Shown piece after piece: positions 1,443 to 62,176 of a stretch of 64,000 nucleotides of DNA. The stretch comes from Cafeteria roenbergensis (Eukaryota > Sar > Bigyra > Bicosoecida > Cafeteriaceae): positions 1 through 64,000 of the forward strand of contig VLTN01000069.1 of assembly GCA_008330645.1 (NCBI GenBank), in the 5' to 3' direction. A program made the position numbers and the translations under genes. The first letter of the stretch is position 1. Each line of letters opens with the position of its first letter. The notes below the pieces were generated by a model. The model made no database searches. It saw only the letters and a list, made by a program, of their open reading frames with translations, and had not been told where the DNA came from.

Positions 1443-3011
1443 TTCATGCCGCCAGGGTGAAGAAGCGCTACCAGCTGGCGCACGTGTGGAGGTCGGAACA
1501 TCGCGGGGGCTGTCGAGGGCCTGGAAGAGCTGCGCGCCGAGATCGAGGAGCTGGCGCTGGAGGCGATGATGGAGCTCAGATCTGACGACGAGTCGTCGGA
1601 TGACATGGAGGCAACTGCAAACCTGGTGGAGGAGTTCATCAGGGCATGCAAGGGAGCCCGCTGCCTGGCCGCAGCGACAGGGTTCGAGGGCTTCTTGCCC
1701 GACACCCTGGGTAAGCTGCCGGGCGAGCTGAAGGCCAAGCTCCGCAAGTGCCTGTACGGCGACGGGGTGACAGCGCGGGCGAACGAGCAGACCGAGGCGC
1801 CCTGGCAGCGCAAGATGGTGCTGCACCACGATGACATGCTGCGCATCAAGCACGAGTGTGTCTTCCTGCGCCGTCTGGCCAAGGCGCGCAGGGCCTGCAC
1901 AGCACGCTGCAGGGCCGAGGCGCTGGCCAAGGGCACGCCGGAGAAGCGTGTCGCCAACATCGATGACCCGGCCATGTTCCGCGTCATGAGCGACCTGGTC
2001 GCGTTCCGGGAGGCATGCGTGCCGGGAACACACTACTGGCTCCGCAACACGATGATGGGACCCCGCGGGCTCACGGACGAGGAGTTTGCGGTGGTCACCC
2101 GCTACCGCATCGGAGCCTCCGAGGCCGACCACGTGGTGCCAGACGGCGTGTCGATCAACTGCGCGTGCATGCAGCGAGACACCACCGCGAGAGGCACCGT
2201 CCACATCGGCGGGGTCTCCGGCGTGGCACATCACCTGGCGCGCTGCCGCTGCGGCAAGGGCTCCACCATCCGGGCGCACAACGACGTCCGCGACGTCCTG
2301 CACGCGGCGGTGCGCTCGGCGGGGCTGCAGTCGGTGGTGGAGCCCTCCAGCTGGCAGGACGGGCAGACGCGCTTCGGGTCCCAGCCGGGGTCCAGCGAGG
2401 CCGCGCGCAAGCGACCGGACCTGCGGGTGCACGTCGACTTCGAGACCACCTGTCTCGTCGACGTGCAGATCACCTCGGCGGTGAGCAAGTCCTACGTGAC
2501 GCAGGGCCTGCAGAACATGGACGCCTTTCTCGAGCGCCGTGAGAATGACAAGATGAGGGAGTACAAGAAGAGCTCAGCTACAAAGGACAACATGAGCTCC
2601 ATTGTGCCCTTCGTCATCACGACCACGGGACGCATGGGACCGGCGGCCTTCGCCTTCCTCAAGAAGGTGGCGGACACGGCCTTCGGCGACCGGCCGAGGG
2701 AGCGTGCGCGCTGGCCCTTCCGCTGGCTGTCGAGGCTGAACGAGGTCATCGCCAAGGGACTGGCGACCCAGCTGATCGGGCAGACGCAGTACCTGCGACA
2801 GCAGGTGGAGCGTTTGCGGTGAGCAGGGGCGGCTGAGTGGCGACTCGAGGCAGTGTGATGGGAGTGATCTGGGCTTGGGACTTGGGATTGTGGGTTTGGC
2901 GCGGTTTGTGACTCATTGGTGATGGAGTTGCTGGATTGGTGATTGGTGAGTCTGTGAATCGAGTGTGTGGTATGGTTACGCGAGTTTTCGACCCCCCCCA
3001 ACGATGTTCAT
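1443..3011 (+). mobile_element. LINE-like retroelement, 3' part, copy 1 (with 3' tail)
   Basis: This unit holds a coding region (1566-2822) and a 3' tail of about 190 bp ending in a C-run followed by ACGATGTTCAT. The same unit recurs at 3161-4731 in direct orientation with only scattered differences. The C-terminal domains (a Cys/His cluster, then an RPD...D nuclease-like motif) and 5' truncation of the sister copy are typical of non-LTR retrotransposons carrying a restriction-enzyme-like endonuclease (R2/NeSL-type group). No reverse transcriptase core is visible, so family placement is inference. The left limit given is where similarity to copy 2 begins; the element may extend further left. 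Confidence 0.6.
1566..2822 (+). CDS. Retroelement C-terminal region with restriction-like endonuclease domain, copy 1
   Basis: This is a 418-codon open frame. It starts with a helical acidic segment, then a long basic helical region. A Cys/His cluster follows (CAC, later HH, then CRC, about 2160-2260). Next comes an RPD motif with a downstream DVQ (about 2410-2470), which fits a PD-(D/E)xK nuclease of the kind found C-terminal to the reverse transcriptase in R2-like LINEs. The end contains a VPF...GRMG segment common in such ORFs. The first Met of the frame is probably not a natural start, because similarity to copy 2 continues upstream in another frame. Function is inferred from motifs only. 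Confidence 0.55.
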   Translation: MMELRSDDESSDDMEATANLVEEFIRACKGARCLAAATGFEGFLPDTLGKLPGELKAKLRKCLYGDGVTARANEQTEAPWQRKMVLHHDDMLRIKHECVFLRRLAKARRACTARCRAEALAKGTPEKRVANIDDPAMFRVMSDLVAFREACVPGTHYWLRNTMMGPRGLTDEEFAVVTRYRIGASEADHVVPDGVSINCACMQRDTTARGTVHIGGVSGVAHHLARCRCGKGSTIRAHNDVRDVLHAAVRSAGLQSVVEPSSWQDGQTRFGSQPGSSEAARKRPDLRVHVDFETTCLVDVQITSAVSKSYVTQGLQNMDAFLERRENDKMREYKKSSATKDNMSSIVPFVITTTGRMGPAAFAFLKKVADTAFGDRPRERARWPFRWLSRLNEVIAKGLATQLIGQTQYLRQQVERLR

Positions 3012-3160
3012 CCCCTATCTGGGCTTGGGAATTGGGATTGCGGGTTTGGCGGGGTTTGTGATTCATCGGTGATGGAGCTGCTGGATTGGTGATTGGTGAG
3101 TCTGTGAATCGAGTGTGTGGTATGGCTACGCGAGTTTTCGATCCCCCCCAACGATGTTCA
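3012..3160 (+). repeat. Free-standing copy of the element's 3' tail
   Basis: About 150 bp matching the distal part of the tails at about 2860-3011 and 4580-4731. It contains the same GGATTGGTGATTGGTGAG block, the GAATCGAGTGTGTGGTATGG block, and a terminal C-run followed by ACGATGTTCA. It carries no coding part and sits exactly between the two longer copies. It looks like a severely 5'-truncated insertion, as expected when LINE reverse transcription starts at the 3' end and aborts early. Confidence 0.6.
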
Positions 3161-4731
3161 TTCATGCCGCCAGGGTGAAGAAGCGCTACAAGCTGGCGCA
3201 CGTGTGGAGATCGTGCGACACAAGGGTAGCCAAAGGCCTGGAGGAGGTGCGCGAAGAGATCGAGGAGCTGGCGCTGGAGGCGATGATGGAGCTCGGATCT
3301 GACGACGAGTCGTCGGATGACATGGAGGCAACTGCAAACCTGGTGGAGGAGTTCATCAGGGCCTGCAAGGGAGCCCGCTGCCTGGCCGCAGAGACAGGGT
3401 TCGAGGGCTTCTTGCCCGACACCTTGGGCGTGCTGTCGGATGACCTGAAGGCCAAGCTCCGCAAGTGCCTGTACGGCGACGGGGTGACGAGGCGGGCGAA
3501 CGAGCAGACCGAGGCGCCCTGGCAGCGCAAGATGATGCTGCACCACGACGACATGCTGCGCATCAAGCACGAGTGTGTCTTCCTGCGCCGTCTGGCCAAG
3601 GCGCGCAGGGCCTGCACAGCACGCTGCAGGGCCGAGGCGCTGGCCAAGGGCACGCCGGAGAAGCGTGTCGCCAACATCGATGACCCGGCCATGTTCCGCG
3701 TCATGAGCGACCTGGTCGCGTTCCGAGAGGCGTGCGTGCCGGGAACGCACTACTGGCTCCGCAACACGATGATGGGGCCCCGCGGGCTCACGGACGAGGA
3801 GTTCGCGGTGGTCACCCGCTACCGCATCGGAGCCTCCGAGGCCGACCACGTGGTGCCGGACGGCGTGTCGATCAACTGCGCGTGCGTGCAGCGGGACACC
3901 ACCGCGAGAGGCACCGTCCACATCGGCGGGGTCTCCGGTGTGGCACATCACCTGGCGCGCTGCCGCTGCGGCAAGGGCTCCACCATCCGGGCGCACAACG
4001 ACGTCCGCGACGTCCTGCACGCGGCGGTGCGCTCGGCGGGGCTACAGTCGGTGGTGGAGCCCTCCAGCTGGCAGGACGGGCAGACGCGCTTTGGATCCCA
4101 GCCGGGGTCCAGCGAGGCCGCGCGCAAGCGACCGGACCTGCGGGTGCACGTCGACTTCGAGACCACCTGTCTCGTCGACGTGCAGATCACCTCGGCGGTG
4201 AGCAAGTCCTACGTGACGCAGGGCCTGCAGAGCATGGACGCCTTTCTCGAGCGCCGTGAGAATGACAAGATGAGGGAGTACAAGAAGAGCTCAGCTACAA
4301 AGGACAACTTGAGCTCCATTGTGCCCTTCGTCGTCACGACCACGGGACGCATGGGACCGGCGGCCTTCGCCTTCCTCAAGAAGGTGGCGGACAAGGCCTT
4401 CGGCGACCGGCCGAGGGAGCGTGCGCGCTGGGCCTTCCGCTGGCTGTCGAGGCTGAACGAGGTCATCGCCAAGGGACTGGCGACCCAGCTGATCGGGCAG
4501 ACGCAGTACCTGCGACAGCAGGTGGAGCGTATGCGGTGAGCAGGGGCGGCTGTGTGGCGACTCGTGGCAGTGTGATGGGAGTGATCTGGGACTTGAGACT
4601 TGGGATTGTGGGTTTGGCGCGGTTTGTGACTCATCGGTGATGGCGTTGCTGGATTGGTGATTGGTGAGTCTGTGAATCGAGTGTGTGGTATGGCTACGCG
4701 AGTTTTCGATCCCCCCCAACGATGTTCATTC
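3161..4731 (+). mobile_element. LINE-like retroelement, 3' part, copy 2 (with 3' tail)
   Basis: Nearly identical to 1443-3011. Its left end begins at TTCATGCCGCC, right after the tail copy that ends in GTTCA, so the junction overlaps by a few bases of TTCAT shared by both sequences. Such short overlaps are common at 5' ends of truncated LINE insertions. The coding part stays open to a stop at 4537-4539 and is followed by the same tail. High similarity to copy 1 and an intact long frame suggest a recent event, either successive insertion or local duplication. Confidence 0.6.
3163..4539 (+). CDS. Retroelement C-terminal region with restriction-like endonuclease domain, copy 2 (5' partial)
   Basis: The frame is open from within the upstream tail repeat; the element-derived coding begins at HAARVKKRYK and has no start codon of its own. 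Compared with copy 1 it retains a continuous frame through a coiled-coil-like acidic segment (EEVREEIEEL), followed by the same basic helical region, Cys/His cluster and RPD...DVQ nuclease motif (about 4130-4190). The most divergent stretch is near the left end, where the two copies differ in length and so in reading frame. Expected role if active: target cleavage and RNA/DNA binding during retrotransposition. The reverse transcriptase part is missing. Confidence 0.55.
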   Translation, partial: HAARVKKRYKLAHVWRSCDTRVAKGLEEVREEIEELALEAMMELGSDDESSDDMEATANLVEEFIRACKGARCLAAETGFEGFLPDTLGVLSDDLKAKLRKCLYGDGVTRRANEQTEAPWQRKMMLHHDDMLRIKHECVFLRRLAKARRACTARCRAEALAKGTPEKRVANIDDPAMFRVMSDLVAFREACVPGTHYWLRNTMMGPRGLTDEEFAVVTRYRIGASEADHVVPDGVSINCACVQRDTTARGTVHIGGVSGVAHHLARCRCGKGSTIRAHNDVRDVLHAAVRSAGLQSVVEPSSWQDGQTRFGSQPGSSEAARKRPDLRVHVDFETTCLVDVQITSAVSKSYVTQGLQSMDAFLERRENDKMREYKKSSATKDNLSSIVPFVVTTTGRMGPAAFAFLKKVADKAFGDRPRERARWAFRWLSRLNEVIAKGLATQLIGQTQYLRQQVERMR

Positions 4732-8240: not shown

Positions 8241-8250
8241 TCAGAAGCAC
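8213..8250. repeat. Perfect 19 bp tandem duplication spanning the actin stop
   Basis: The unit GCTTGTTGCTCAGAAGCAC occurs at 8213-8231 and 8232-8250. The right unit contains the actin stop codon (8241-8243) and the last two codons; the left one is the same sequence repeated in the 3' untranslated region. Confidence 0.9.
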
Positions 8251-9817
8251 TTGCGGTGCACGATGCTGGGGCCGGCCTCCTCGTACTCCTCCTTGGAGAT
8301 CCACATCTGCTGGAAGGTGGAGAGGGACGAGAGGATGGAGCCGCCAATCCAGACGGAGTACTTGCGCTCGGGGGGCGCGACCACCTTGATCTTCATGGTG
8401 GGCGGGGCAAGGGCGGTCACCTCCTTGGTGAGGCGCTCGGCGATGCCGGGGTACATGGTGGTGCCGCCGGACAGCACGATGTTGGCGTAGAGGTCCTTGC
8501 GGATGTCCACGTCGCACGACATGATGGTGTCGAAAGTGGCCTTGTGGATGCCCTCGGCCTCCTTGCCGAGGATGGACGGCTGGAAGAGGGCCTCGGGGCA
8601 GCGGAAGCGCTCGTTGCCGATGGTCACGGTGTTGCCGTCCGGGAGCTCGTACGTCTTCTCGAGCTCGGAGCTGTCGGCGGCGGTGGCAAGCTCCGCGTCG
8701 AAGTCAAGTGCCACGTACGTGAGGCGCTCCTTGATGTCACGCACGATCTCGCGCTCGGCGGTCGTGGTGAAGGAGTGGCCGCGCTCCGTCAGAATCTTCA
8801 TCATGTGCTCGGTGAGGTCCCGGCCAGCCAGGTCGATGCGCTTGATGGCGTGGGGGAGGGCGTATCCCTCGTAGATGGGCACGGTGTGGGTCACGCCGTC
8901 GCCGGAGTCAAGCACGGCACCGGTGGTGCGGCCGGAGGCGTACAGGGAGAGCACGGCCTGGATGTTCACGTACATGGCGGGCACGTTGAAGGTCTCGAAC
9001 ATGATCTGGGTCATGCGCTCGCGGTTGGACTTGGGGTTGCGCGGGGCCTCGGTGAGGAGGACCGGGTGCTCCTCGGGCGCGACGCGGAGCTCGTTGTAGA
9101 AGGTGTGGTGCCAGATCTTCTCCATGTCGTCCCAGTTGGTCACGATGCCGTGCTCGATGGGGTACTTGAGGGTGAGCACGCCGCGCTTGGACTGCGCCTC
9201 GTCGCCCACATAGGCATCCTTCTGGTCCATGCCGACCATCACGCCCTGGTGGCGCGGGCGGCCCACGATGGAGGGGAAGACGGCGCGGGGGGCGTCGTCG
9301 CCGGAGAAGCCGGCCTTGCACATGCCGGACCCGTTGTCCACCACCAGAGGCTGCACGTCTTCGTCTGCCTGCGCAGGGCAAGCAAGCAAGGGGTCCAGGA
9401 GCGGTAGGCCACGAACCAGGAGCTCGTCGAGCTTCGATTGGTGCGGGAAGTCCGACAGCGTTCACGCTTTTTGCGCGAGGGCTGAGGAATGGCACGTTTG
9501 GACAGCGCGCGACGATGCTGGAACCGCAGGGTTTGCAACACAAGCTGGAGAGGGGGGGGGGGGAGAGGCGTGCCCGGGGATGACAGCTCGTGGCCAGCCG
9601 CGCCGGAACGGGGACTCTCGCTCAGCGACATGCGGCTTGGCTCGCGCGCGACGGCTGAGGAACTGGCCGCGCGCTCGCGCGCCAGCCAACCCGCCAGGAT
9701 TGGGGCCGGCGGCCGCAGCCCTGGTCCCCAAGCCTTCCGCCCCCTGCGAACAGCCCTTGCGCTGTGGCCTTGTTGCTGCGCTGCAGCAGGTCGACTTGCG
9801 GCCGCGAGGCTCACCAT
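8241..9817 (-). CDS. ACT: Actin, intron directly after the ATG
   Basis: Cytoskeletal actin, an ATP-binding filament protein. The main exon (9368-8241) encodes [20 protein letters not shown] through SIVHRKCF without a break, with the usual phosphate-binding DNGSG loop and DSGDGVTH motif. The preceding bases form an acceptor (CCTGCGCAG). The only nearby ATG followed by a good donor is at 9817-9815 (ATG then GTGAGC), so exon 1 would contribute just the initiator Met. The join gives M-A-D-E-D and 376 residues, the normal actin length. The 446 bp intron holds a G-rich run. The gene is divergent from the AMSH-like gene, with 184 bp between the two ATGs. The family call is certain; the first exon is inference. 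Confidence 0.95.
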
Positions 9818-12174: not shown

Positions 12175-12899
12175 ATGGCGTCCGCATCTGGCCCCGGAAC
12201 GTCGGGTGAGGGCGTGCGGTAGGGTGCCATCTCGGCGGCTGACCTGCTGCACCGCTCAGCCGCCCCGCCTTCAGTGCGGGAAGCCGCGTCCCAGACCCGG
12301 ACTTGATCGGAACTGGGAGCGCGCACGTGTTGCGGGTGTCCGGGCCTCGGTCCTGCTGCGCAATGGCGCCCTCGTGTAGCTCGTGCGCTGGCAATCGGGC
12401 GCAGATGGCTTCCCGGACACGGTGTTCGGCAAGATTTTGCGCAAGGAGATCCCCTCCTCAGTGGTGTACGAGGACGACTCGGGGGGGGGGGGGGGGGGGA
12501 CAGGCGCGCCCCCGGTTCCTCGGCTACCTTCCATTCCACGCTTGTGCTCGATTGCAAGACTCTGCGCCGCAGGCTGAGGACCGCCACGCGGCGATTCTGG
12601 GCAAGCTCATGCTGGCGGCCAGCAAGGTCGCCAAGGCTGCCGGTGTGGCCGAAGGAGGCTACCGCGTTGTCGTCAACGCCGGCGAGCATGGGTGTGAGGG
12701 TCGCGGCAGCGCGCTCGGCTAGCGCACCACCGACTGCTTTTCTGGTGCCCTCCGTGTTTCAGGCAGCCGCTTGTGCACTTCCACGCTGTTGCTTCGCGCA
12801 GGCCAGACCGTGGACCACATCCACCTGCACGTGATCGGCGGCAAGCAGCTCACTTGGCCTCCGGGCACGGGCGCGCCCGAGGGGAGCAAGACCGCGTGA
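12175..12899 (+). CDS. HINT1: HIT-family nucleotide hydrolase (HINT1 type), internal segment missing
   Basis: HINT proteins hydrolyse nucleoside phosphoramidates. Exon 1 (12175-12205) reads [10 protein letters not shown] and ends at a GTGAGG donor. Exon 2 (12405 to about 12480) gives [20 protein letters not shown] and then YEDDS. A later exon (12573-12693) gives [19 protein letters not shown] up to NAGEHG; the last exon (12802-12899) carries the catalytic HIHLHVIGG and ends QLTWPPG with a short tail. The roughly 28 residues expected between EDD and AEDRHA (the strand with LAFRDxxPQAP in relatives) are absent. Joining exon 2 directly to the next exon also breaks frame. A 19-G run (12481-12499) sits exactly there. 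Identity is clear; the present sequence cannot encode a complete HIT fold. Confidence 0.8.
12481..12499. repeat. 19-base G homopolymer inside the HINT1 gene
   Basis: An uninterrupted run of G beginning right after the codons for EDDS. Similar runs occur at 6904-6923 and, as C, at 19262-19275. Such tracts are prone to slippage and assembly collapse. Confidence 0.9.
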
Positions 12900-13000
12900 T
12901 GCGCCATCCGCGCGCGAGCGGCCGCACCCGAGCTCGCGCCCTGCTGTGGGTGTTCCCGAGGCACGATGTGAGAAGCTTTCTCACACAAGCCCACGGGCGC

Positions 13001-13106
13001 ACAAGCAAGACTGCGAGACCGCAAGCAAGCAAGACCGCAAGCAAGACCGCAAGCAAGACCGCAAGCGCGCAAGACCGCAAGCAAGCAAGACTGCAAGCAA
13101 GCAATC
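13001..13106. repeat. Minisatellite of CAAGACCG / CAAG units
   Basis: Imperfect tandem units of about 12 bp (core GCAAGCAAGACC) lie in the 240 bp between the convergent HINT1 and translin genes. There are no conserved-repeat-plus-unique-spacer features, so it is not a CRISPR array. Confidence 0.8.
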
Positions 13107-13139
13107 GCACCCGGGGCGGTCGTCCCAGCGCCAGACCGG

Positions 13140-14626
13140 CTACTCGTCCGCGTCCGCCGGCTTGGACCGCTTGGCGGGCCGAGCATCACCCCGAGTACCC
13201 CCGCCACGCCCGCCCCCTCGGCCACCGCCACGTCCGCCCCCTCGCCCGCCACGCCTGCCCCCGCGCCCCCCAGCGGAAGCAGCCGACTCGTCCTGTGCGT
13301 CCTCGCCGTCGCCAGCATCGTCGCGGTCGCCGTCTCCCGAAGGCACGTCGCGGGACCCCATGCTGAACTGTCCCAGCGCCTTGGTGAGCGACATCTCGTA
13401 CGTGACCTGCGGCAGCCCGATCGCGCAGAAGCGGCAAGGCAGTCGAGTGGCGAGGGCACGCCGCTTTGCGGCTCAGGCCGGCTGCCGCACGGCGCTGCTG
13501 CTGCCCCGGGCACGGCGCGCGCTGGGCACGGCGCAGTGAGCCTCGCCGAACCGCGAGATCGCCCCTCGCCGGGCTGGCCTCTTCGCCCGCAGCTCACCTG
13601 CTCGAGCTTCTTGAGGCTGTACTTGATGCCGTCGTACTTGCGGCGCAGCTGCCCGTTGCGGAAATCAAAGCCCATGAGCGCGAGCTGGACGTCGTCCACC
13701 GCTTCCCTGGCGCGCGCAACGGCCTCCTCGTCGCGGCGCGTGGCTGCCAGCACAGCCGTGCGCGTGACCTCGCCCACAAAGTCCATCACGCCCCCCAGGT
13801 ACTCGTCGCGGTTCACCACGCCGGCCAGGCCCTCGGAGCGCGGGGAGGGGACGCGCCCGTCGCGCAGGTACCCCTGGAAGATGACCGCCTCGGCGTACTC
13901 CTCCAGCGCGCCGGACAGGGCGCCGCCGAAGCGCAGCTGCGCCTTGCCGTCTGCGAGCGGGAAGAGCTCTGCCTCCACGATGGTCCGCGCCTCGGCCAGG
14001 TTGCTCGTCGCGAGCTCCGTCTGCCCGCGATGGAGGCAGTAGATGGCCGTCTTGGACAGCTTCAGCACGTCGCGGGACCGCTTGATCACGACCTCGCGAG
14101 TGCCGTCGTCCGCCTCCATCTGCGCTCGCACGGGAGACGCTTGACAGCAGCGCGCGCCAGGCAGGGTGGAGCGCGCCCGCCATCCCGACCTGCAAAGCAA
14201 GAGTTGCACATGGCAACCTTGCCGCAGCTCCGCGTGGCCAGCCTGGCCACGCAGGCCGGCACAGACCGGACACGCAGCCACGCCTCAGCACGCCCAGCCT
14301 CGCTGCCTTGCGCCGGAGCGCCCGCGCCGCCCCAGCGCGCTCGCCGCGAGCGGTGCGAGAGGCCACGCCGTCCGGGGCGCGCTCACCTCCTTGCGCAGCT
14401 CCTCGAATGCCGGCATGTCCACAATCCGCGAGGTCGCCGAAATTCCGGTAGTGTGCGGCTTCCCAGCGGGAGCTGCGTCCGTCTCTGTCGATGCGCGGGC
14501 GCCAGCGGCGGCGCCTGCAGACGAGGCGGCGGGGGCAGCCTCCGACCTTGCGGCCGGCGCATCAGATGCCGCAGGCTGCGAAGCAAGCGCCGGAACAGCC
14601 GACGACGACGATGACGATGACGCCAT
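13140..14626 (-). CDS. Translin-family protein with C-terminal RGG tail, three exons
   Basis: Translin and TRAX form an octameric RNA/DNA-binding complex; with TRAX it acts as the C3PO endoribonuclease. Exon 1 (14626-14387) encodes a Ser/Ala-rich leader ending FEELRKE. Exon 2 (14119-13598) begins MEADDGTREVVIKRSRD and holds the all-helical core, with LEEYAEAVIFQGYL and LRRKYDGIKYSLKKLEQ. Exon 3 (13406-13140) continues VTYEMSLTKALGQ and then a glycine/arginine tract (GGRGGRRGGRGGG) and a basic end. Donors are GTGAGC, acceptors GCAG, all introns phase 0, giving 342 residues. The core resembles both translin (the KYDGIKY segment) and TRAX (the EYAEAVIFQ segment), so I do not choose between them. 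The RGG extension is not part of the known family. Confidence 0.82.
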
Positions 14627-15525
14627 GGTGCGGCAGCCGAAGGGGCTGGCGGGTGCCGAGCCGCCTGCTTTTGTTTGGGTAATTGCAGCAAGGCCGGCCA
14701 AAGCAGAGCCGCTGGAGCTTCGGCAGGCGGCGGGTCGCTCCTCGTTTGCGCCTCGGCCGCCTGCGCCCGCGCGCACTCCCGGAAGCTCCAGAAGCTCCCG
14801 GCCGCGTCCTCGCGGTTCGACCTTCTCCGTCAGCCTCCCCCTCGACAGGTTGTGAGTCGTCAGAGCACGCATCCAAAAGCCAAATCTTCCGGCTTGCGCC
14901 AGGCCGCTGCCCGGCGGACCTGCAACGGCGTGCCCGCCTTGTTTGGGGCGCCTCGACGTCGACGGCTCGCCGGCGCATCTGCGCCCCGCGACGCCAGGCC
15001 CGCGGGCCTCGCGCGGCCGGCCCCCGCCCTCTCGACCGCGCTGGCTGCAGCGCAGAGGCTGGGCGGCCCGGCCCGCGCGTCCCGCGAACCAGGCGCGCCC
15101 GGCCTGCAGCGGACCTCGCGAGCTTTGTCCGGGGTTGACCTTTTGCCGTGGCCGGCTTGGTTGTTGCCGCCGCCTCGCGCGCCCTGGGGCGGCGCACCCC
15201 CGCCACCCCCTCCCCTCACGGGTGCCACCCACGGGTTGCCGCCACGACCCGCAAAAGGCGGCCGCGGGGGCGGGCCCTCATTCCCGGCGGCTGCTTGCGC
15301 GCCGGCCCCACGACGTTTCCCCGGCGCAATTCCCGCGACCGCGCGCTCTGCCACCTCATGCCTCAAAAAGTCGCGCCGACTGCAGCGTGACCGGCGCAGG
15401 CGGCCCGCGCCCCGCGCGGCCCCTCCCTCCAGTTCCTGAGATGCGGCCCGTTGCCCCAGCCACCCCCTGCCCCCGCTCCTCTCGCTCTCACGTGTTGTGT
15501 GCCTCGTCTGCAGTTCCAAAGCGCG
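14627..15525. other. Divergent promoter region of translin and the SQD1 fusion gene
   Basis: About 900 bp of GC-rich DNA with no convincing gene. The right end looks like a 5' untranslated intron of the SQD1 gene: a pyrimidine-rich stretch ends in GTCTGCAG at 15506-15513, just before the ATG at 15526. Because the frame stays open across that acceptor, an upstream exon adding N-terminal residues cannot be excluded. Confidence 0.4.
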
Positions 15526-18500
15526 ATGGCGGCAACCGCTCCCATCCAGGTTGGCACGGCGGCCCCGGCACCCGTGCCCCTCCCCAAAGGTTTTAGCTCT
15601 CTAACTCCCGAGCAACAGGGTTACGTGATGGCCGCGCGCCTCGGCGCCGCCGTGACCTCCGCGACCAACGCCAAGCTTGCGGATCTGCCGTTCGGAGTCG
15701 GCGATCTGACCGAGCTTGACATCCCCGCGCTCGCCACCGACGCCGCCGACGCCCCTGCGCCCAAGGCCCTCCAGCACAGCCGCCGGCGCGTGCTCGTGAC
15801 CGACCTGGACGGCACCCTGACCGGCTCCTCGGGCCGTCTGCCTGCCTCCGTCTTCGCCCGCCTCGAGACTCTCCGCGAGCGCCAGAACGTGCTCGTGGTC
15901 GTGTGCACGGGCCGCCCAGTGTCGTGGGCGCGCACCATCATGGCGACCTGGCCGGTCGACGCCGTAGTGGCCGAGAACGGCGCCGTCATCCTCTTCGCCG
16001 CGGCCCCCGAGGGCGCTTCCGCGGCCGCTGGCCCCGCCGGCAGCTCCGCCGGTGCCCCGCCCACCGTGGTCGAGGAGGCTCTCTTCCCGTCCACAGAGGA
16101 GGACCTCGCAGCCCGCGCAGCGATGATCAAGCGCGCAACCGACGCTCCGTCCGCCGGCGGCCTTGGCCTCTCTCTCTCCCCGGACCAGGCCGGCCGCGCC
16201 TGCGACGTCGCCTTCGAGCTCGACGACTCCCCCGCCGCCGGGCCCACGCGCGGCATTCCGGCGGCCTTCCTGGAGGAGCTCACCGCCGGCGGCTTCGCCT
16301 TCTCCTTCTCCAACATCCACCTCAACGTGTGGCGCGGCTCCCAGACCAAGGCCTCCGGCTCCGACGCCGTGCTGGCTCGCCTCGGCCTGTCCGCGGAGGA
16401 CGCCGCAGACGCCGTCTTTGTCGGCGACTCCCCCAACGACCGCCCCTGCTTCCGCCGCTTCCACCCCCACAGCTACGGCGTGGCTTCCGTGTCCCGCTAC
16501 ACCGGTGTCGCCGCTCGCGGCCCCGCGGCCGAGGACGCCGCCGAGACCGGCCCCCTGAGCGCCGCGTGCGGCCGTGTGACCGTGTCCGACGGCCCCGCCG
16601 GCTGGCTCGAGGCGGTGGACCACGCCTTCCCCTCACAGGCGTTCGCCACCCTCGTGGCCAACGAGTTCTACGTCACCGGCGCCATCGCCCTCGCCAAGAG
16701 CCTCGCCGCCACTGGCACAACCCGCCCCCTCATCTGCCTCACAGGCCCCGAGGTGTCCGAAGAGTCCGCCGCCCGCCTCGCCGCCCTCGGCGTCGTGGTG
16801 GCTCGCGTGCCCCTCGTGCCCTTCACGGACGCCTTCCGCGAGCGCCACCGTCTGGACGTCATCAAGGCGTCCCGCCCCTACAACAGCGGCGTGGACAAGC
16901 CCAAGCAGTTCCGCAACCTCTTCAACTTCTCCAAGCTCCTCCTCTGGGCCCTCACCGACTTCGAGACGGTCGTCTACCTCGACGCCGACATCGTGGTGAT
17001 GCAGAGCATGGACTCGCTCTTCGACGTGCGCGGCTTCGGCGCCGCACACAACCTCCACGTCCGCTTCGACCAGCTGAACCGTATCAACTCCGGCGTCATG
17101 GTCCTTCACCCCTCCGTGGCCACCCTCCGCGCTATGTTCCGCGTCCTCCTCGACGAGGCGTCCACCGTGACCTACCACCGCACCGACCAGACCTTCCTCG
17201 AGTCCTTCTTCGCCGGCCGCACCCACGGCCTCGACCGCTCTGTCAACGCCCTCCAGTACTTCTTCGTCACCGCGCCCGAGGCCTGGGACTGGGCCACCGT
17301 GCGCGCCACGCACTTCATCATGCAGAAGCCTTGGCAGAGCCTGGCCGACGCCGCCGATGCCGACGCCGCCGCAGCCCTCGTTGCCCCCGGCGCCCCCCTC
17401 CCCGCCCTTCCCTCCGGCGCCCGGCCCGAGCTCGCCTGCGTGCACGCCGTCTGGTGGGCCGTCTTCCGCGCCACGCTCGCCAGCGACGCCACCGTGTCCG
17501 CGCACGACGCCGTCGTGGCCGCCGGCGAGGCTGCCGTGGCATCGCTCGTCTCCACCGACGCAGATGCCGATGCCGCCGAGACCAAGGACGACGAGGTCGT
17601 CCCCGCCGTCGCCGCTTCCGCCACGTCGGCAGCTTCCGCCGCCGCCGCCGCCGCTGGAAGCGCCACGCCCGCGGCCGCCACGGGCGCCGCCGCGGAGGCC
17701 TTGATGCTGTCCAAGGCTGCGGCCGGCGCAACGGCCATGCCCCTCACCCTCCTCGCGCCCCGCTCCAAGCGCGTGCTCGTGGTGGGCGGCGACGGCTTCT
17801 GCGGATGGCCCCTGGCCCTTCGCCTCAGCGCCCAGGGCTACGAGGTCCTCATCGCCGACAACCTCTCCCGGCGCCGCATCGACGCGGAGCTGGGAGTCGA
17901 CTCCCTCACCCCCATCAAGCCCATGGCCGCCCGCCTGGCCGCTTGGGAGGAGGTGACCCGCGCCGACGGCGGCGCCCCGCGCAAGATCCACTTTGAGCTG
18001 TGCGACGTGAACACCGAGTACGACCGCTTCAAGGGCGTCATGGAGCGCTTCCGCCCCAGCACCGTGGTGCACCTTGGCGAGCAGCGCGCCGCGCCCTACT
18101 CCATGAAGGACGAGCGCACGCGCCGCTACACCGTCACCAACAACCTCGGCGCCACCCACGCCGTCCTCAACGCCATCGTTGAGACGGACCGCGACACGCA
18201 CCTCGTGCACCTGGGCACCATGGGCGTGTACGGCTACGGCGCCGTGGAAAACGTCATGCTCCCCGAGGGCTACGTAGACATCAAGATGAAGGACATGCAC
18301 GGCAAGTGGCAGGACAAGAGCATCCTGCACCCCGCCTACCCCGGCTCCGTCTACCACATGACCAAGACCCAGGACGCCCTGTTCTTCCAGTTCTACGCCA
18401 AGAACTATGGCCTCTCCATCACCGACCTCCACCAGGGCATCGTCTGGGGCCTCCACACCGACGAGACCCGCCGCCACCCCGACCTCATCAACCGCCTCGA

Positions 18501-18948
18501 CTACGACGGCGACTACGGCACTGTGCTCAACCGCTTCGTCATGCAGTCGGCCTGCGGCCACCCCCTCACCGTCTACGGCACGGGCGAGCAGACCCGCGCC
18601 TTCATCCACATCCAGAACTCCATGGAGTGCATGCAGCTTGCCGTCGAGAACCCGCCCAAGCGCGGCGACGCCGTGCGCATCTTCAACCAGATGACCGAGT
18701 GCCACCGCCTCCTCGACCTCGTTGCCCTCCTCAAGCGCGTCTTCCCCGGCACCGAGGCCTCCTTCGTCGACAACCCCCGCAAGGAGCTGCGCGCCAACGA
18801 CCTGCGCGTCACCAACCAGAAGTTCCTCGACCTGGGCCTCAAGCCACGCCTCCTCGAGGGCGACAGCGTGCGCGAGATCCACGAGGCGGTGACCCTCTTC
18901 AAGTCCCGCTTTGACCCCCGCCACGTGCTCCCCAAGAGCTTCTGGTGA
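15526..18948 (+). CDS. SQD1: Three-module protein: HAD phosphatase + GT8 glycosyltransferase + UDP-sulfoquinovose synthase (SQD1)
   Basis: A single frame of 1,140 residues. Module 1 (about 85-375) is a Cof-type HAD hydrolase with DLDGTLT (D93, D95), TGRP, and GDSPND (300-305). Module 2 (about 380-640) is a glycogenin-like GT8 transferase with the metal-binding DAD (486-488), NSGV and a terminal KPW. After an Ala-rich linker, module 3 (about 745-1140) is UDP-sulfoquinovose synthase: Rossmann loop GGDGFCG (754-760), T898, and the SDR pair Y943/K947 in SVYHMTK. SQD1 converts UDP-glucose and sulfite to UDP-sulfoquinovose. In plants the sugar is then transferred by SQD2, a GT4 enzyme; here a GT8 is joined instead. 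All active-site motifs look intact. The N-terminus MAATAPIQVG does not look like a plastid transit peptide, though an upstream coding exon is possible. Module identities are firm; the joint reaction is inference. Confidence 0.9.
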   Translation: MAATAPIQVGTAAPAPVPLPKGFSSLTPEQQGYVMAARLGAAVTSATNAKLADLPFGVGDLTELDIPALATDAADAPAPKALQHSRRRVLVTDLDGTLTGSSGRLPASVFARLETLRERQNVLVVVCTGRPVSWARTIMATWPVDAVVAENGAVILFAAAPEGASAAAGPAGSSAGAPPTVVEEALFPSTEEDLAARAAMIKRATDAPSAGGLGLSLSPDQAGRACDVAFELDDSPAAGPTRGIPAAFLEELTAGGFAFSFSNIHLNVWRGSQTKASGSDAVLARLGLSAEDAADAVFVGDSPNDRPCFRRFHPHSYGVASVSRYTGVAARGPAAEDAAETGPLSAACGRVTVSDGPAGWLEAVDHAFPSQAFATLVANEFYVTGAIALAKSLAATGTTRPLICLTGPEVSEESAARLAALGVVVARVPLVPFTDAFRERHRLDVIKASRPYNSGVDKPKQFRNLFNFSKLLLWALTDFETVVYLDADIVVMQSMDSLFDVRGFGAAHNLHVRFDQLNRINSGVMVLHPSVATLRAMFRVLLDEASTVTYHRTDQTFLESFFAGRTHGLDRSVNALQYFFVTAPEAWDWATVRATHFIMQKPWQSLADAADADAAAALVAPGAPLPALPSGARPELACVHAVWWAVFRATLASDATVSAHDAVVAAGEAAVASLVSTDADADAAETKDDEVVPAVAASATSAASAAAAAAGSATPAAATGAAAEALMLSKAAAGATAMPLTLLAPRSKRVLVVGGDGFCGWPLALRLSAQGYEVLIADNLSRRRIDAELGVDSLTPIKPMAARLAAWEEVTRADGGAPRKIHFELCDVNTEYDRFKGVMERFRPSTVVHLGEQRAAPYSMKDERTRRYTVTNNLGATHAVLNAIVETDRDTHLVHLGTMGVYGYGAVENVMLPEGYVDIKMKDMHGKWQDKSILHPAYPGSVYHMTKTQDALFFQFYAKNYGLSITDLHQGIVWGLHTDETRRHPDLINRLDYDGDYGTVLNRFVMQSACGHPLTVYGTGEQTRAFIHIQNSMECMQLAVENPPKRGDAVRIFNQMTECHRLLDLVALLKRVFPGTEASFVDNPRKELRANDLRVTNQKFLDLGLKPRLLEGDSVREIHEAVTLFKSRFDPRHVLPKSFW

Positions 18949-19484: not shown

Positions 19485-22283
19485 CTACCGCCTGGCGTCG
19501 CGAGGCCCGCTCCTGGCCCTCGGGACATTGCCGGAGCCGCCCCCACGAGCCGCCTGCCGGGGCCTGGCAGCCCCGGTAGCTGGTGCAGCGGGCTTGGCCC
19601 GCTTGGTGGTGGTGACGGCGGCGGCGGCAGGCTTGCCGGCCGCACCGCTGCTGCTGCCCCTGGGCGCAGCGCGCTCGGCTTTGGCGCCGCCCCTGACTCG
19701 CAGGCGCAGCGGCACCCCCCAGAGGTCGAACTCCTCGCGGAGGGAGCTGAGGAGGAAGCGGCCCCACGCCCGCGGAACCTCGGACTTGTTCGTGAAGAGC
19801 GAAAAGGTGGGGGGGCGCGAGTGCACCTGGGAGGCGTACAGAACGCGCAGCGGCGCCACGCGGGTGGTGGGCCGGCCCTTGAACTCGTGCGGGCGCGCGG
19901 ATCCCCTGCGCGTCCCCGACGGGGGAGGGTGCGCCGCCAGCATGCGCTGCAGCCAGGCGTTGAGCTGCGACGTGCGGATGCGCCTGCTCCAGCGAGCGTG
20001 CGCCTCGAGCACAGCGGGCAGCACGGCCCCTGTTCCCAGGCCCGCCAGCGCGGACGTGCCCACCACCGCGGCGCCCCTGGCCTCTCCCGCCGCGTGGTCG
20101 GCCTGCTTTGCGACTGCGGAGAGCGCCGCGGCTCTGTCCGGCACGCCGTCCAGCTTGTTCGCCACCACGACGAGCGCCCTGCCCTCTCGAGTGACCGTCT
20201 GCGCAATGGCGGCGTCCTGCCGCGTCAGGCCCTCCGTGGCGTCGACGACGAGCACCACGACGCCCGCCCGGCCCAGCGCGGCGCGCGCAGCCGCCGCAGA
20301 CGCCGCCTCCAGCCCCTCGCCCGCAGCCGACCAGTCCCACTTGGCGGCCCGCCGCATCCCGGCCGTGTCCAGCAGCGCCACCCGCCGCCCCTCGCACTCC
20401 ATCTCCACCTCTGTCGCGTCCCGCGTCAGACCGGCGGTGGGGCCGGTGAGCAGCCGCTCCTGGCCCAGCAGCCGGTTGACGAGCGTGCTCTTCCCCACGT
20501 TGGGCCGCCCCACCACCGCCACGGCCACCTCACCGTGCTCCGCCAGATACGCCCGGCGGGCGTTGAGCCGCTCGCGGGCCGTCAGCGGCGCAGGGGCCTC
20601 CGCGCCGAGCGACGAGGCGCCCTCGTCCGAGCGGCCGGGCAGCTCGGTCGCGACGCGGCCCGCGGAGGCGCGGCTCTGAGTCGCGCCGTGGGGCGCCGCC
20701 GCCGCCGCGCCGCCGCCAGCGCCGGCCCTCGCCTCGTCCTCCTCGTCCTCCTCTGGCGTCCACCGTCCCTCCCCCTCCGAGGCGCCCTCCGAGTCAGTCC
20801 ACGGCGCTGGCGGCACGTCGCTGCCGTCGCTGCCGCCCTCGTCCTCTGACCACGCCCCTCGGGCGCCCAGGCCGCCGAAACTGCTAGCCTCTTCGCCGTC
20901 GCTGCCGCCTGAGTCTCCGCTTGCCCCCGTGCCATCGCGGTCGCGCCGCGCAACGACCATGTCCGACACCCGGTCGCCCGCTCCGCCGGCGGGCTGGGCG
21001 GCACCGGCCCCGCCAGGGCCGTCCTCGGCCCGGTTGGGCGGCCCCGAGCCGCGCTCCCCCGCCTCGGCCACGGCCACGGCCAAGTGGTCCAGCAGCTCTG
21101 CCGTGCCCTGGCCCTGTGCGGCCGACACCGCGGCGCAGGCCCCGCCCCCCACGCCCAGCCCGGCGGCTTCCGCAGAGGCCACGGCCCACCACTCGTCCCA
21201 GCCCGCCACGTCGGCCACGCCGTCGGACTTGTTGAGGACCACCATAACCCTGCCCGACGCGGACGAGGCTGCCGGCCCGAGCACGCCCCGCAGCCACTCG
21301 GCAAGCCGCTCGTCGTCCGCCGTCACCCCCTGCCTGGCGTCCAGGACCACCCAGACGGCGTCGGCCGACCGCACCGCCGCGGCGGTTTGCTCTGCCATGC
21401 GCTGCGCGACGGACACCCCGGGGTCCGGCTTGGGCGCCGGCGCAGCGCTGGCCGGGCCACCAGCGCCGTCCACGACGAAGCCGCCCGCGGTGAGCACGCG
21501 ACCCCAGGCAGCCGCGGCCGCCTCTTCCGGCGTGCTGGCGTGCATGGCTGAGCTGGTCGCCAGCGCCTCGCCCGCTGCCAGCAGGCCGGCGGCATCCACG
21601 CCCCTGTGGTGCCGCTGCTCCGGGGGCAGCCCCACGCCCGCGACGGCCGCGCCCTCCCCCTCGGCCTCCAGCCCAGCCGTGTCCACCAGGCGGAAGGGCA
21701 TGCCCCCGATGCTCGCCCGGCCCTCCTTCCAGTCCCGGGTGGTGCCGGGAACGCGCGAGACGATGGCGGGGGTGGCGCCCCCGCCGGTGCCCGCAGCCCG
21801 CCTCCCGGCCGCACCCCTGGCCCAGCGCGAGCTCGTGTGGGTGGCCTTGTGGCCGCACAGCAGGTTGAACAGCGTGCTCTTGCCCACGTTGGGCCGCCCC
21901 ACCAGCGCCACGCGCGGCTCGCGGCCCAGCCTGGCCCAGATGGCTTCCACGGTCAGCTCCGTCGCGTCAGCGGCCGCCGCTTCCCGCTCTGCCGCCGACC
22001 CCCCTGCCCCCGCCCCCGCCCCCGCCCCCGCCCCGCTCCGGCCAGCGTACATTCCTCCGACAACCGGGTCGAAATGGGCCCGCCCTGCCTTGGCCGCCTG
22101 CGCCGCGGCCTTCTCCGCTCGCTGCCGCTTCTTGGTCGGAGACGCGCCCATCCAGCGGGCAGCCCCGCTCCCGACAGCGCCCCGGCACGCGAGGCCCGGC
22201 GCAACAGCCAAGCGGGCCCGGGAGACCGCAGCAGCTGCGGCAGCCCTGGCATCGCTGCCAGGAAAGCGGCCTCGCGACAGCAT
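19485..22283 (-). CDS. DER: Der/EngA tandem GTPase, organelle-targeted
   Basis: A double GTPase required in bacteria for large ribosomal subunit assembly; eukaryotic homologues act in plastids or mitochondria. The first G domain has GRPNVGKST (near residue 127), DTAGLE and NKSD. The second has GRPNVGKST (near 588), DTAGMR and NKLD, followed by the KH-like C-terminal region (TNKSEVPRAWGRFLLSSLRE). The order G1-G2-KH is that of EngA. Long acidic and Ala/Gly-rich inserts bring it to 932 residues, about twice the bacterial length. The chosen start (MLSRGRFPGS) opens an Arg/Ala-rich, acid-poor leader typical of a mitochondrial or plastid presequence; earlier in-frame Mets exist. It is divergent from the Era gene. 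Confidence 0.9.
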   Translation of the reverse strand: MLSRGRFPGSDARAAAAAAVSRARLAVAPGLACRGAVGSGAARWMGASPTKKRQRAEKAAAQAAKAGRAHFDPVVGGMYAGRSGAGAGAGAGAGGSAAEREAAAADATELTVEAIWARLGREPRVALVGRPNVGKSTLFNLLCGHKATHTSSRWARGAAGRRAAGTGGGATPAIVSRVPGTTRDWKEGRASIGGMPFRLVDTAGLEAEGEGAAVAGVGLPPEQRHHRGVDAAGLLAAGEALATSSAMHASTPEEAAAAAWGRVLTAGGFVVDGAGGPASAAPAPKPDPGVSVAQRMAEQTAAAVRSADAVWVVLDARQGVTADDERLAEWLRGVLGPAASSASGRVMVVLNKSDGVADVAGWDEWWAVASAEAAGLGVGGGACAAVSAAQGQGTAELLDHLAVAVAEAGERGSGPPNRAEDGPGGAGAAQPAGGAGDRVSDMVVARRDRDGTGASGDSGGSDGEEASSFGGLGARGAWSEDEGGSDGSDVPPAPWTDSEGASEGEGRWTPEEDEEDEARAGAGGGAAAAAPHGATQSRASAGRVATELPGRSDEGASSLGAEAPAPLTARERLNARRAYLAEHGEVAVAVVGRPNVGKSTLVNRLLGQERLLTGPTAGLTRDATEVEMECEGRRVALLDTAGMRRAAKWDWSAAGEGLEAASAAAARAALGRAGVVVLVVDATEGLTRQDAAIAQTVTREGRALVVVANKLDGVPDRAAALSAVAKQADHAAGEARGAAVVGTSALAGLGTGAVLPAVLEAHARWSRRIRTSQLNAWLQRMLAAHPPPSGTRRGSARPHEFKGRPTTRVAPLRVLYASQVHSRPPTFSLFTNKSEVPRAWGRFLLSSLREEFDLWGVPLRLRVRGGAKAERAAPRGSSSGAAGKPAAAAVTTTKRAKPAAPATGAARPRQAARGGGSGNVPRARSGPRDARR

Positions 22284-22602
22284 TGGTGTGGTGCGCGCTC
22301 TCTCGTGCCAAGTGTGCCGCTCCCGGGAACGCAGCGGCCCCGCGGCCCTTGAGCTTCGCGCGACGCGCTTCGGCGTGCCCCTGTGCTTCTGCTCGTGGCC
22401 GTCAACCTTCCGGGGCCCGGCCGCTCTGTTGCGCGACGATGGACGCACAGCTGGCCCTGTCGAAGGTTGCACCGCTGCGGCTCTGCCAAGGGCGCCGTGA
22501 GCCCTCGCCGTGCTCCCGGCACGCCGCCTGCCTCGCCCAGCCTGACGTCACGGGGCCAAGCTTAGTTTTGGCCACGGCGTTTGAGCGCGGTTTGCTTGCG
22601 GC
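22284..22602. promoter_or_regulatory. Shared divergent promoter of Der and Era genes
   Basis: Only 319 bp separate the two start codons, which point away from each other. No TATA-like or other recognisable box is seen. Both genes encode organellar ribosome-assembly GTPases, so common control is plausible. This is inference from layout. Confidence 0.4.
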
Positions 22603-24309
22603 ATGATGCGCTGCGCGCAAGGGAAGCGTGCCCGCGCTGCCCGGGCGTGCGTGGCGCTGCTGCTGCAGCGCACGCACTCCACAACGGGGGGGACGCCCAA
22701 GGCGCCCCGCTTTGGAAGCCGGACTAACGTGCGCCACTCCGACCTTGACGAGCGGCCGGTGGTGGCGCCCCGAACGCTTCGCCAGGGAACGAACCGCGGC
22801 GCAGGGCTCGGCGACTTTGTCGCGCCCGAGGGCCGCCGGTCCCCGGTGAAGCGAGCATGGACGCCCCCGCAGGACGTGGGAGAGCAGCTGAGCGTGTCCG
22901 CCTCGCTAGTCGGGCTGCCCAACGCAGGCAAGAGCACGCTGCTAAACTCGCTCGTTGGCAGCAAAGTCTCTGCCTCGTCCAACAAGCGACACACCACAAG
23001 GCGCCCTGCCGTGGGCGTGGTGACTGACGGCCGGGCGCAGCTGGTGCTCACCGACACCCCGGGCGCGCTCGAGGGCGCTTGGGCCAGCAGCCGGGCTCTC
23101 GACGAGTTCCGCCGGGAGGCGCTGGATTCCGCACGCAGCTCTGCCGCGGGCGCGCTCGACGACGAGTTCGCGGCGGCAGAGGCCGCCTGGATGGAGGAGA
23201 AGGGCGTCGACGCCCCGGGCGCACCCCGCGGGGAAGGCGACGAGGGCGCGAGCGACGCTGAGGATTGGAGCGATTCCTCCGGCGACCGCGACCCAGCCGA
23301 GCGCGAGACACGCGCTGCCGCCGCAGGGTGGTCGGCCGCCGCCGCCCAGTCGGCGGAATCGGCGCCAGTGCCGCGCCTGCAGCCCCGGCTGCGCCACGGA
23401 CCCGCCGCAGACGCGTCGCGCGCGGCAGCAGCGGCGCTGGGCGGCTCGGACGTGGCGCTCATCGTGGTGGACGGGGCGCGCAGGGTCGACGGCGAGGCGG
23501 TGGGGGTGCTGGACCGCGCCGTGGCGGCCTGCGCGTCGGCCGGCGCGCTTCCCCTCCTCGTGGTGACCAAGGCCGACTTGCTGGTGGGGGCGTCCGGGCC
23601 CGCCACGCGGGAGCCTGGGTACGCTAACGACTGGGACGTCGAGCACTCCGGGGGCGGCGGCGGGGCCGGCCGGGGCGTGACGTGGGCTGGCCGCGGCCGC
23701 GGCCGCGGGGGCGGCGGCAGAGCCGCGGGACCCGCCGGGTCGCGCCAGGACGGCGGGCAGGGCCTCGCGGCGCTGCACAGCCGCATCGACGATTTGAGCG
23801 ACGCCCTTGAGCAGAGCATGATGGAGTGGGGGCTCCTCGACGCCCGAGGCCTCGACGCGCTGCCCGTGCCCCACGTCCACGTCGTGTCCGGCCGCACCGG
23901 CGGCGGCCTCGGCTTCCTGCGCCGCTCGCTCTGCCGCCTGGCCGTTCCGCGACAGTGGAGCTTCGCGCGCGACGCCGTGACGGACCTGACGGGCCCCGAG
24001 CTGGCCGAGGAGGTGATTCGCGAGAAGATATTCCGGTCAACGCAAGCGGAGGTGCCCTACCGCGTCGGCGTGGAGGTGGTGTCGTGGGCCGAGGCCGAGG
24101 CGGGCTCCCTCGTCGTCGTGCACGCCGACATTGTGGTGCCCTCGCGGGCCTATTCGGCCATGCTTACGGGGCGGGGCGGGTCCGCCCTGCGCGCCATCGC
24201 CAGGGGCGCCGAGCGCGACCTGGGGCGCACCATGGGCAGGCGAGTGCGCATCCTGCTCCACGTCGGGGTGAGCCCGTCGCGCGCCCAGCGGCTCATGGTC
24301 TCGCGGTAG
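22603..24309 (+). CDS. ERA: Era-type GTPase with KH domain, organelle-targeted
   Basis: Era binds the 3' end of small-subunit rRNA during ribosome assembly; in eukaryotes it works in mitochondria (ERAL1) or plastids. The N-terminus (MMRCAQGKRARAARACVALL) is basic and acid-poor, as in a targeting peptide. The G domain has GLPNAGKST (near residue 105), the HTTRR switch, DTPG, and TKAD (near 321). The C-terminal KH domain covers about 470-562 (EEVIREKIF; GRGGSALRAIARGAERDLG). Acidic and Gly-rich inserts between G3 and G4 and after G4 lengthen it to 568 residues. No intron is needed. The TAG stop is at 24307-24309. Confidence 0.9.
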   Translation: MMRCAQGKRARAARACVALLLQRTHSTTGGTPKAPRFGSRTNVRHSDLDERPVVAPRTLRQGTNRGAGLGDFVAPEGRRSPVKRAWTPPQDVGEQLSVSASLVGLPNAGKSTLLNSLVGSKVSASSNKRHTTRRPAVGVVTDGRAQLVLTDTPGALEGAWASSRALDEFRREALDSARSSAAGALDDEFAAAEAAWMEEKGVDAPGAPRGEGDEGASDAEDWSDSSGDRDPAERETRAAAAGWSAAAAQSAESAPVPRLQPRLRHGPAADASRAAAAALGGSDVALIVVDGARRVDGEAVGVLDRAVAACASAGALPLLVVTKADLLVGASGPATREPGYANDWDVEHSGGGGGAGRGVTWAGRGRGRGGGGRAAGPAGSRQDGGQGLAALHSRIDDLSDALEQSMMEWGLLDARGLDALPVPHVHVVSGRTGGGLGFLRRSLCRLAVPRQWSFARDAVTDLTGPELAEEVIREKIFRSTQAEVPYRVGVEVVSWAEAEAGSLVVVHADIVVPSRAYSAMLTGRGGSALRAIARGAERDLGRTMGRRVRILLHVGVSPSRAQRLMVSR

Positions 24310-61932: not shown

Positions 61933-61965
<33 letters not shown>

Positions 61966-62129
61966 CCTGACGAATGCGAAAGTGCCGCCACAATGCAGTC
62001 CCGCCTGTTCGACGCGAAGCTCTGCCGGATGGTGTTGCTCACGTCAGAGTAGAGCGAGACCACGCCAGGACCCGCAGCGTTCCACGCCCTGGGATTGGCG
62101 GCGATTGCCCCGCCGCCGCTACCGCCGCT

Positions 62130-62176
<47 letters not shown>

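Follow-up and report, generated by a model that had tools for sequence, protein, structure and literature searches.

In plants and algae, the synthase SQD1 and the transferase SQD2 of sulfoquinovose metabolism are separate plastid proteins, and SQD2 is a GT4 and not a GT8 glycosyltransferase. In bacteria, including some cyanobacteria, the synthase SqdB can be found beside an SqdX-like GT4 gene, and in other bacteria it belongs to a sqdBDC operon whose SqdD resembles glycogenin and whose sqdC mutant accumulates sulfoquinovosyl-dihydroxyacetone. SqdD is the sulfoquinovosyldiacylglycerol (SQDG) synthase of the sqdBDC set and is unrelated to SQD2 and SqdX (PMC11346425, PMC5638391, PMC11771548, PMC10315480); it is used for sulfolipid by Rhodobacter sphaeroides and Sinorhizobium meliloti (PMC5638391, PMC11771548), SQDG requires sqdBDC (PMC11346425), and the UDP-sulfoquinovose pool is much larger in a R. 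sphaeroides sqdD mutant (PMC5638391). Here, we analysed a gene of the protist Cafeteria roenbergensis in the first 64,000 nucleotides (64 kb) of contig VLTN01000069.1 (the whole stretch is called the window below), in which a HAD-IIB phosphatase domain, an SqdD-like GT8 domain and an SqdB-like UDP-sulfoquinovose synthase domain are joined in a single open reading frame. We propose, with a probability of roughly 0.55, that this fusion acts in sulfoquinovosylation as bacterial SqdB and SqdD do, and that the HAD domain would strip phosphate from a glycerol-type acceptor or product.

One reading frame with three enzyme domains

The frame begins with the ATG at 15526 and ends with the TGA at 18946-18948, and the Pfam, NCBIfam and PDB matches to the phosphatase, transferase and synthase follow one another along its 1140 residues with their motifs intact (Table 1). 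This confirms, at the level of the predicted protein, the preliminary description of 15526-18948 as one polypeptide with three enzyme domains. Since GC is high (about 73% over 16001-18000, and 65-78% across the window) and a 792-aa open frame lies antisense to much of the gene, the length of the frame is by itself little proof, and we accepted the frame because three independent homologies lie in it and because of its codon usage (third-position GC of 0.92). The coding score, whose training set included the fusion frame itself among other frames, gave one high-scoring segment without a break (15511-18942) that spans all three modules. Long frames such as the antisense one come cheaply at this GC, which would fit an artefact, either a chimeric assembly or a run of three distinct genes mistaken for one; we regard this as highly improbable, because there is neither a stop nor a frame change across the modules, the coding signal continues through all of them, and SqdD and SqdB are natural partners, as shown in the next section.

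No signal or transit peptide was evident by eye in the visible N-terminus, which agrees with what had been noted earlier for a transit peptide, and the first 86 residues hold 5 K/R and 7 D/E. The sequence TCTGCAG, which resembles a splice acceptor and has its last base at 15513, lies 12 bases upstream of the ATG; the gene may therefore have an earlier exon, and the N-terminus given here is provisional. Such an unseen exon could carry a plastid-targeting signal, in which case the fusion would serve sulfolipid synthesis in a plastid and be unusual in its domain arrangement; a review that distinguishes two SQD1/SqdB clades places red algae, together with alphaproteobacteria and some cyanobacteria, in one of them (PMC8227023); a Der/EngA GTPase gene nearby also speaks for the plastid. 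We consider this explanation quite unlikely, since plants and microalgae are described as having SQDG synthases of the SqdX kind (PMC11771548), the green and red algal GT8 proteins reported in one survey are of the PGSIP type only (PMC3797821), and the visible N-terminus is without an evident transit peptide.

The SqdD-like transferase domain

The middle domain matched Pfam Glyco_transf_8 (8e-12, residues 376-605), and none of the 10 Pfam matches of the fusion was to the GT4 family with the SQD2/SqdX fold. The DAD motif (486-488) is invariant in 20 aligned GT8 rows, and the window domain keeps the residues that are invariant in 19 SqdD-like rows, among them DAD, NSG, DQ and the H...KPW of HFIMQKPW (596-603). 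In a tree whose rows outside the SqdD set were only one glycogenin and one weak GT8 (L190), the window fell inside the SqdD set and apart from glycogenin, with a support of 99/95 and a long branch. Relatives of the domain were sought with tblastn-type searches at E up to 1e-15 in genome samples of which those of the family and the phylum overlap. Within one alphaproteobacterial family they were present in 45 of 295 genomes (141-174 bits, 34-43% identity). The sample of the phylum gave 10 of 398 genomes, with a weak match (59.5 bits) in one, and the order of Shewanella surugensis gave 1 of 197, namely S. surugensis itself. The best glycogenin match reached 60 bits in phmmer, a different program from that of the genome searches, and a Skp1 transferase was also among the matches. 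One SqdD-like gene carries the annotation Glycogenin-1.

The SqdD-like GT8 and the SqdB-like synthase are paired in bacterial genomes. A synthase gene lies within about 1.5 kb in 35 of the 39 bacterial loci fetched by the GT8 domain (L152-L190). The four loci without a synthase in the flank are L153, L154, L169 (a short locus) and L190 (with its weak, distant GT8); L153 is from the Shewanella genome, in whose longer locus L129 the synthase lies about 1.6 kb upstream. Among plasmid records, the 7 best-scoring of 10 GT8 matches adjoin synthase matches. When loci were fetched by the synthase instead, a window-like GT8 was found in 3 of 151, from S. meliloti, a Hyphomonadaceae metagenome-assembled genome and S. 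surugensis. Loktanella and Palleronia have a sqdB-sqdD-sqdC-like gene order, in which a third oxidoreductase gene follows; the third gene is of the epimerase family in L196 and L111. Thus, the window resembles the sqdBDC operon (35/39 loci, and S. meliloti L068, which we take to be the studied sqdB locus of this species) in having a TMGVYG-type synthase paired with an SqdD-like GT8, a likeness that is drawn from S. meliloti and the fetched loci. In contrast, the operon consists of separate genes in the order B-D-C, and the window has the order HAD-D-B in one eukaryotic chain.

These results change what can be read from the transferase family. The preliminary description had set the GT8 against SQD2 and had taken it, as a hypothesis, to point away from sulfolipid. 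The transferase is indeed a GT8, but the contrast was incomplete because bacterial SqdD is likewise a GT8, and the suggestion was not borne out, since an SqdD-like GT8 serves sulfolipid in bacteria; on the same ground we rejected the rule that a GT8 means a non-lipid acceptor. The route proposed there, in which the recipient of sulfoquinovose is a glycan, a protein or some small metabolite that is no glycerol compound, has parallels in the N-glycans of Sulfolobus, which receive a sugar derived from UDP-sulfoquinovose (PMC4388408), and in the protein and sugar glycosylators among GT8 enzymes (glycogenin and Skp1 transferase matches). However, the GT8 domain is specifically SqdD-like, and neither a signal peptide nor a membrane segment for a secretory route was evident by eye, which makes this route decidedly unlikely.

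The SqdB-like synthase domain

The C-terminal domain matched NCBIfam UDPsulfquin_syn (3e-93, residues 748-1131) and Pfam Epimerase (4e-20, residues 750-1045), and SQD1 from the PDB matched the whole domain in phmmer (2e-87, residues 748-1140). Its motifs are GGDGFCGW (754-761), TMG (898-900) and YHMTK (943-947), and the latter two contain the UDP-sulfoquinovose synthase fingerprint [ST]MG...Yx3K (Table 1 of PMC8987622). The residues reported as essential in Agl3 of Sulfolobus (His95, Arg101, Met145, Tyr182 and Lys186; PMC4388408) are also present, as judged by eye via SQD1, in which HFGEQR, TMG and YHLSK align with HLGEQR, TMG and YHMTK of the window. The same UDP-sulfoquinovose synthase chemistry is predicted for the window domain as for Agl3, which differs in being of the Glu147 type and in having a membrane glycosyltransferase as its partner and a glycan as the acceptor (PMC4388408).

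The identity of the domain was 53-57% to the bacterial genome loci analysed, which are the best 80 of at least 586 confirmed; it fell to 41% for Arabidopsis SQD1 and to 38% for L071, a bacterial relative at a greater distance. The window synthase is homologous over its full length to Arabidopsis SQD1, and the first reaction is the same in the plant and algal pathway; the differences are that Arabidopsis SQD1 has the motif TMGEYG instead of TMGVYG and that the window synthase is fused, with a GT8. In 175 bacterial and viral-contig rows, which are clean full-length matches all fetched using the window domain, a TMGVYG-like motif with Val was found in 167, S. meliloti included, Glu in 1 (L053), and no readable motif in 7, so Val at the position equivalent to residue 147 of Agl3 marks a type and not the family. 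In a tree of 81 rows the window domain fell inside this Val-type set; 27 rows of alphaproteobacterial synthases from sqdBD operons grouped together (support 98), with the window domain and the Shewanella operon row both placed outside this group. On the NCBIfam model NF041015, the window scored 317 bits with a curated cut-off of 575, and the S. meliloti synthase beside the GT8 gene scored 332 bits; we rejected a score under this cut-off as evidence, because the five bacterial relatives tested, S. meliloti among them, were likewise below it (304-350 bits).

In the 80 best genome loci, the family found most often within 3.5 kb of the synthase was GT4, with 10 loci. These neighbours are SqdX-like by eye, with one member confirmed by Pfam, which supports the TMGVYG type as a true UDP-sulfoquinovose synthase; in such loci, for example L131, the synthase is of the same type as in the window, but it is unfused and its partner is a GT4 instead of a GT8. 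A phage search gave 2 weak matches, to general epimerases, and no relatives of the whole protein, the GT8 domain or the HAD domain were found in viral contigs by the pattern method. On a Pelagovum plasmid (L069, 8998-10904), the synthase gene adjoins a phosphoadenylyl-sulfate reductase gene, whose product could supply sulfite locally. Taken together, family membership makes it quite probable for each of the two domains that it plays the SqdB or the SqdD role in the fusion.

The HAD-IIB phosphatase domain

The N-terminal domain matched Pfam Hydrolase_3 (3e-12, residues 90-155) and S6PP (5e-5, residues 87-155), NCBIfam HAD-SF-IIB (7e-16) and the family model of mannosyl-phosphoglycerate phosphatase (E 7e-6, residues 89-311). 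HAD motifs I-IV and the C2 cap are present (DLDGT 93-97, TGRP 128-131, K275 and GDSPND 300-305). The domain had earlier been called a Cof-type phosphatase; it is a HAD-IIB phosphatase, but the Cof label was too specific, with 37.6 bits on the subfamily model TIGR00099 against a cut-off of 137. A fold search with its AlphaFold model (mean pLDDT 78.9) returned C2-capped HAD-IIB phosphatases, with SPP at rank 4, TPP at rank 9 and MpgP at ranks 14, 15 and 17. MpgP, SPP and TPP, which are paired with glycosyltransferases in their pathways, have the capped HAD-IIB fold and motifs in common with the window domain; identity is low (12-23% for the top 50 fold matches listed), and the window domain belongs to another subfamily. 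This is a proteobacterial HAD-IIB subfamily, which shares with the window TGRPxxW...WPVDAVVxENGA, SxIHxNxWxG, the K and GDSxND. Its members were found in 132 plasmid records at E 0.01 or better (best identity 38%), in 18 of 299 genomes at 1e-8, some as partial matches (best identity 39%), and in 2 of 98 cyanobacterial genomes as partial matches only.

The subfamily adjoins glycerol-phosphate genes in part of its loci. Two of the four annotated plasmid loci have genes for sn-glycerol-1-phosphate dehydrogenase and glpD next to the phosphatase gene, the third has glpD and an iron-containing alcohol dehydrogenase gene, and the fourth has phnCDE and a DeoR/GlpR regulator gene; a fifth plasmid locus, L195, carries no annotation. 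Among 15 genome loci, glpD was found in one, ugpE in two (with ugpC confirmed in one of these) and phnCDE in three, two of which also have a glycerophosphodiesterase gene; TRAP transporter genes adjoin others. This glycerol-phosphate/phosphonate neighbourhood is suggestive, and from it we infer that the HAD domain may act on a glycerol-phosphate-type acceptor or product, a role that we assign tentatively and hold to be somewhat less probable than its opposite. It also lends some support to the phosphorylated sugar intermediate of the preliminary description, which stays hypothetical. The proteobacterial HAD-IIB gene beside phnCDE or ugp transporter genes (L191, L226, L229, L230, L231 and L232) may encode a glycerol-phosphate phosphatase.

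Genomic setting

The window is eukaryotic nuclear DNA, in which the neighbours of the fusion gene include actin, translin, HECT ligase, FAR-17a and EF-hand genes (Table 1). The Cafeteria genomes are reported to have a GC of about 70% and 1.67-1.89 introns per gene (PMC6972860), with which the GC and the small number of introns in the window agree. No tRNA, and no Rfam family at gathering score, was found within the 64-kb window.

Table 1. Features of the fusion gene and of its surroundings, in window coordinates
Feature	Position	Strand	Remarks
Single open reading frame, HAD-IIB - GT8 (SqdD-like) - UDP-sulfoquinovose synthase (SqdB-like)	15526-18948	+	1140 aa
Possible 3' splice site tgtgtgcctcgtctgcag	15496-15513	+	read by eye
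N-terminal extension, residues 1-86	15526-15783	+	no signal or transit peptide evident by eye; start provisional
HAD-IIB phosphatase domain, residues ~87-345	15784-16560	+	Pfam, NCBIfam, model, shared signature
GT8 domain, SqdD-like, residues 369-609	16630-17352	+	DxD, NSG, DQ, H...KPW conserved
Ala-rich low-complexity linker, GT8 to synthase, residues ~640-745	17443-17760	+	~105 residues; translation
UDP-sulfoquinovose synthase domain, bacterial TMGVYG type, residues 748-1140	17767-18945	+	NCBIfam, phmmer against PDB, alignments
Coding-looking frame	1461-2819	+	453 aa, no Pfam match
150-bp tandem repeat	2867-3161		near the 453- and 479-aa frames
Coding-looking frame	3100-4536	+	479 aa, no Pfam match
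Actin gene	8244-9371	-	single exon, strongly conserved
Translin-family gene	12719-14281	-	nearly whole domain in first half; remainder without Pfam match
Der/EngA GTPase gene	19485-22472	-	Arg/Ala-rich presequence by eye, could be mitochondrial
Era-like GTPase gene (MMR_HSR1 + KH)	22585-24306	+	divergent from the Der/EngA gene
Unbroken frame with terminal HECT ubiquitin ligase domain	24723-47915	-	~7731 aa; internal UBA and RanBP-type zinc finger
Class 3 lipase-like protein	48437-51610	-
EF-hand protein	60201-63440	-

Discussion

In the mechanism that we propose, the C-terminal SqdB domain would convert UDP-glucose and sulfite to UDP-sulfoquinovose and feed it within one chain to the SqdD domain, which would transfer sulfoquinovose to a glycerol-type acceptor, either diacylglycerol or a soluble compound (for example, glycerol phosphate or dihydroxyacetone phosphate). 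The HAD-IIB domain would take phosphate off the acceptor or the product and would thereby drive the reaction onward, the part that MpgP, SPP and TPP play in making other glycosides. The families of the three domains, their common frame and the bacterial pairing of an SqdD-like GT8 with an SqdB-like synthase are shown here, whereas catalytic activity of the fusion, the glycerol-type acceptor and the phosphatase step are inferred; the product would be either SQDG or a soluble sulfoquinovosyl-glycerol.

Several results weigh against this proposal. The synthase domain has Val at the position of Glu147 of Agl3, and the Glu147 to Ala mutant of Agl3 keeps 12.4% activity (PMC4388408); an inactive paralogue was nevertheless rejected, because the S. 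meliloti copy likewise has Val at this position. The window has a long branch in the domain trees, and its exact place among the synthases is not resolved. Glycerol-phosphate/phosphonate-type genes were found in 6 of 15 HAD genome loci compared to 1 of 20 stretches that were drawn as controls from the same genomes (Fisher p 0.027), with queries that were picked after the loci had been seen and of which ugpE came from one of the 15 loci; when the ugpE query was left out, the counts were 4 of 15 and 1 of 20 (p 0.14), and 9 of the 15 loci have none of the queried transport and glycerol-phosphate genes. The HAD subfamily was present in 3 of 52 SqdD-bearing genomes, as weak or partial matches, compared to 4 of 45 genomes without SqdD, and a HAD match was absent from the 151 loci fetched by the synthase (E 0.01) and from the 39 GT8 loci. 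The subfamily and SqdD thus show no tendency to occur together, so that in bacteria the pathway does not regularly include this phosphatase. In addition, the sqdBDC operon has SqdC, and neither an SqdC nor an SqdA partner was recognised within the 64-kb window.

The missing link between the HAD subfamily and SqdD in bacteria would be expected if the fusion makes ordinary membrane SQDG, with the SqdB and SqdD domains acting on diacylglycerol as in Rhodobacter and the phosphatase in a side role such as metabolite trimming or regulation. SqdD is the SQDG synthase in both Rhodobacter and Sinorhizobium (PMC11346425, PMC5638391, PMC11771548), which also fits. However, such a pathway gives no reason for the retention of a phosphatase domain with intact motifs in this chain, and the window in which SqdA and SqdC were not recognised does not favour it; we consider it somewhat unlikely. 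A more specific form of our own proposal is a plastid-independent cytosolic pathway that builds the headgroup first, in which UDP-sulfoquinovose would be made, sulfoquinovose placed onto glycerol phosphate or dihydroxyacetone phosphate, and the product dephosphorylated. This is unlikely as a complete scheme; if true, it would yield a free sulfosugar glycoside (an osmolyte or a phosphate-sparing metabolite) or else a precursor to which acyl chains are added afterwards.

The chemistry predicted for the sulfoquinovosylation enzyme is already known, and what appears new is the HAD-SqdD-SqdB fusion, the occurrence in a eukaryote of an enzyme of the SqdD type, and the phosphatase module. No description of the fusion, the eukaryotic host or the phosphatase was found among the best-ranked papers of the literature searched, which was mostly outside subscription journals, and further protists may carry such a fusion in their genomes without its having been noticed. 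The phosphatase module provides a concrete clue to the chemistry of the acceptor, one for which the bacterial operon has no counterpart. If the proposal is true, the true acceptor of SqdD would become directly testable in a single purified protein. Taken together, these results suggest a sulfosugar pathway in C. roenbergensis that is unlike the one known from plastids; with an SqdD-type route fused into one enzyme, eukaryotes would, if this is true, have two ways of reaching sulfoquinovose compounds, and the sulfosugar cycle could gain a new source among eukaryotes.

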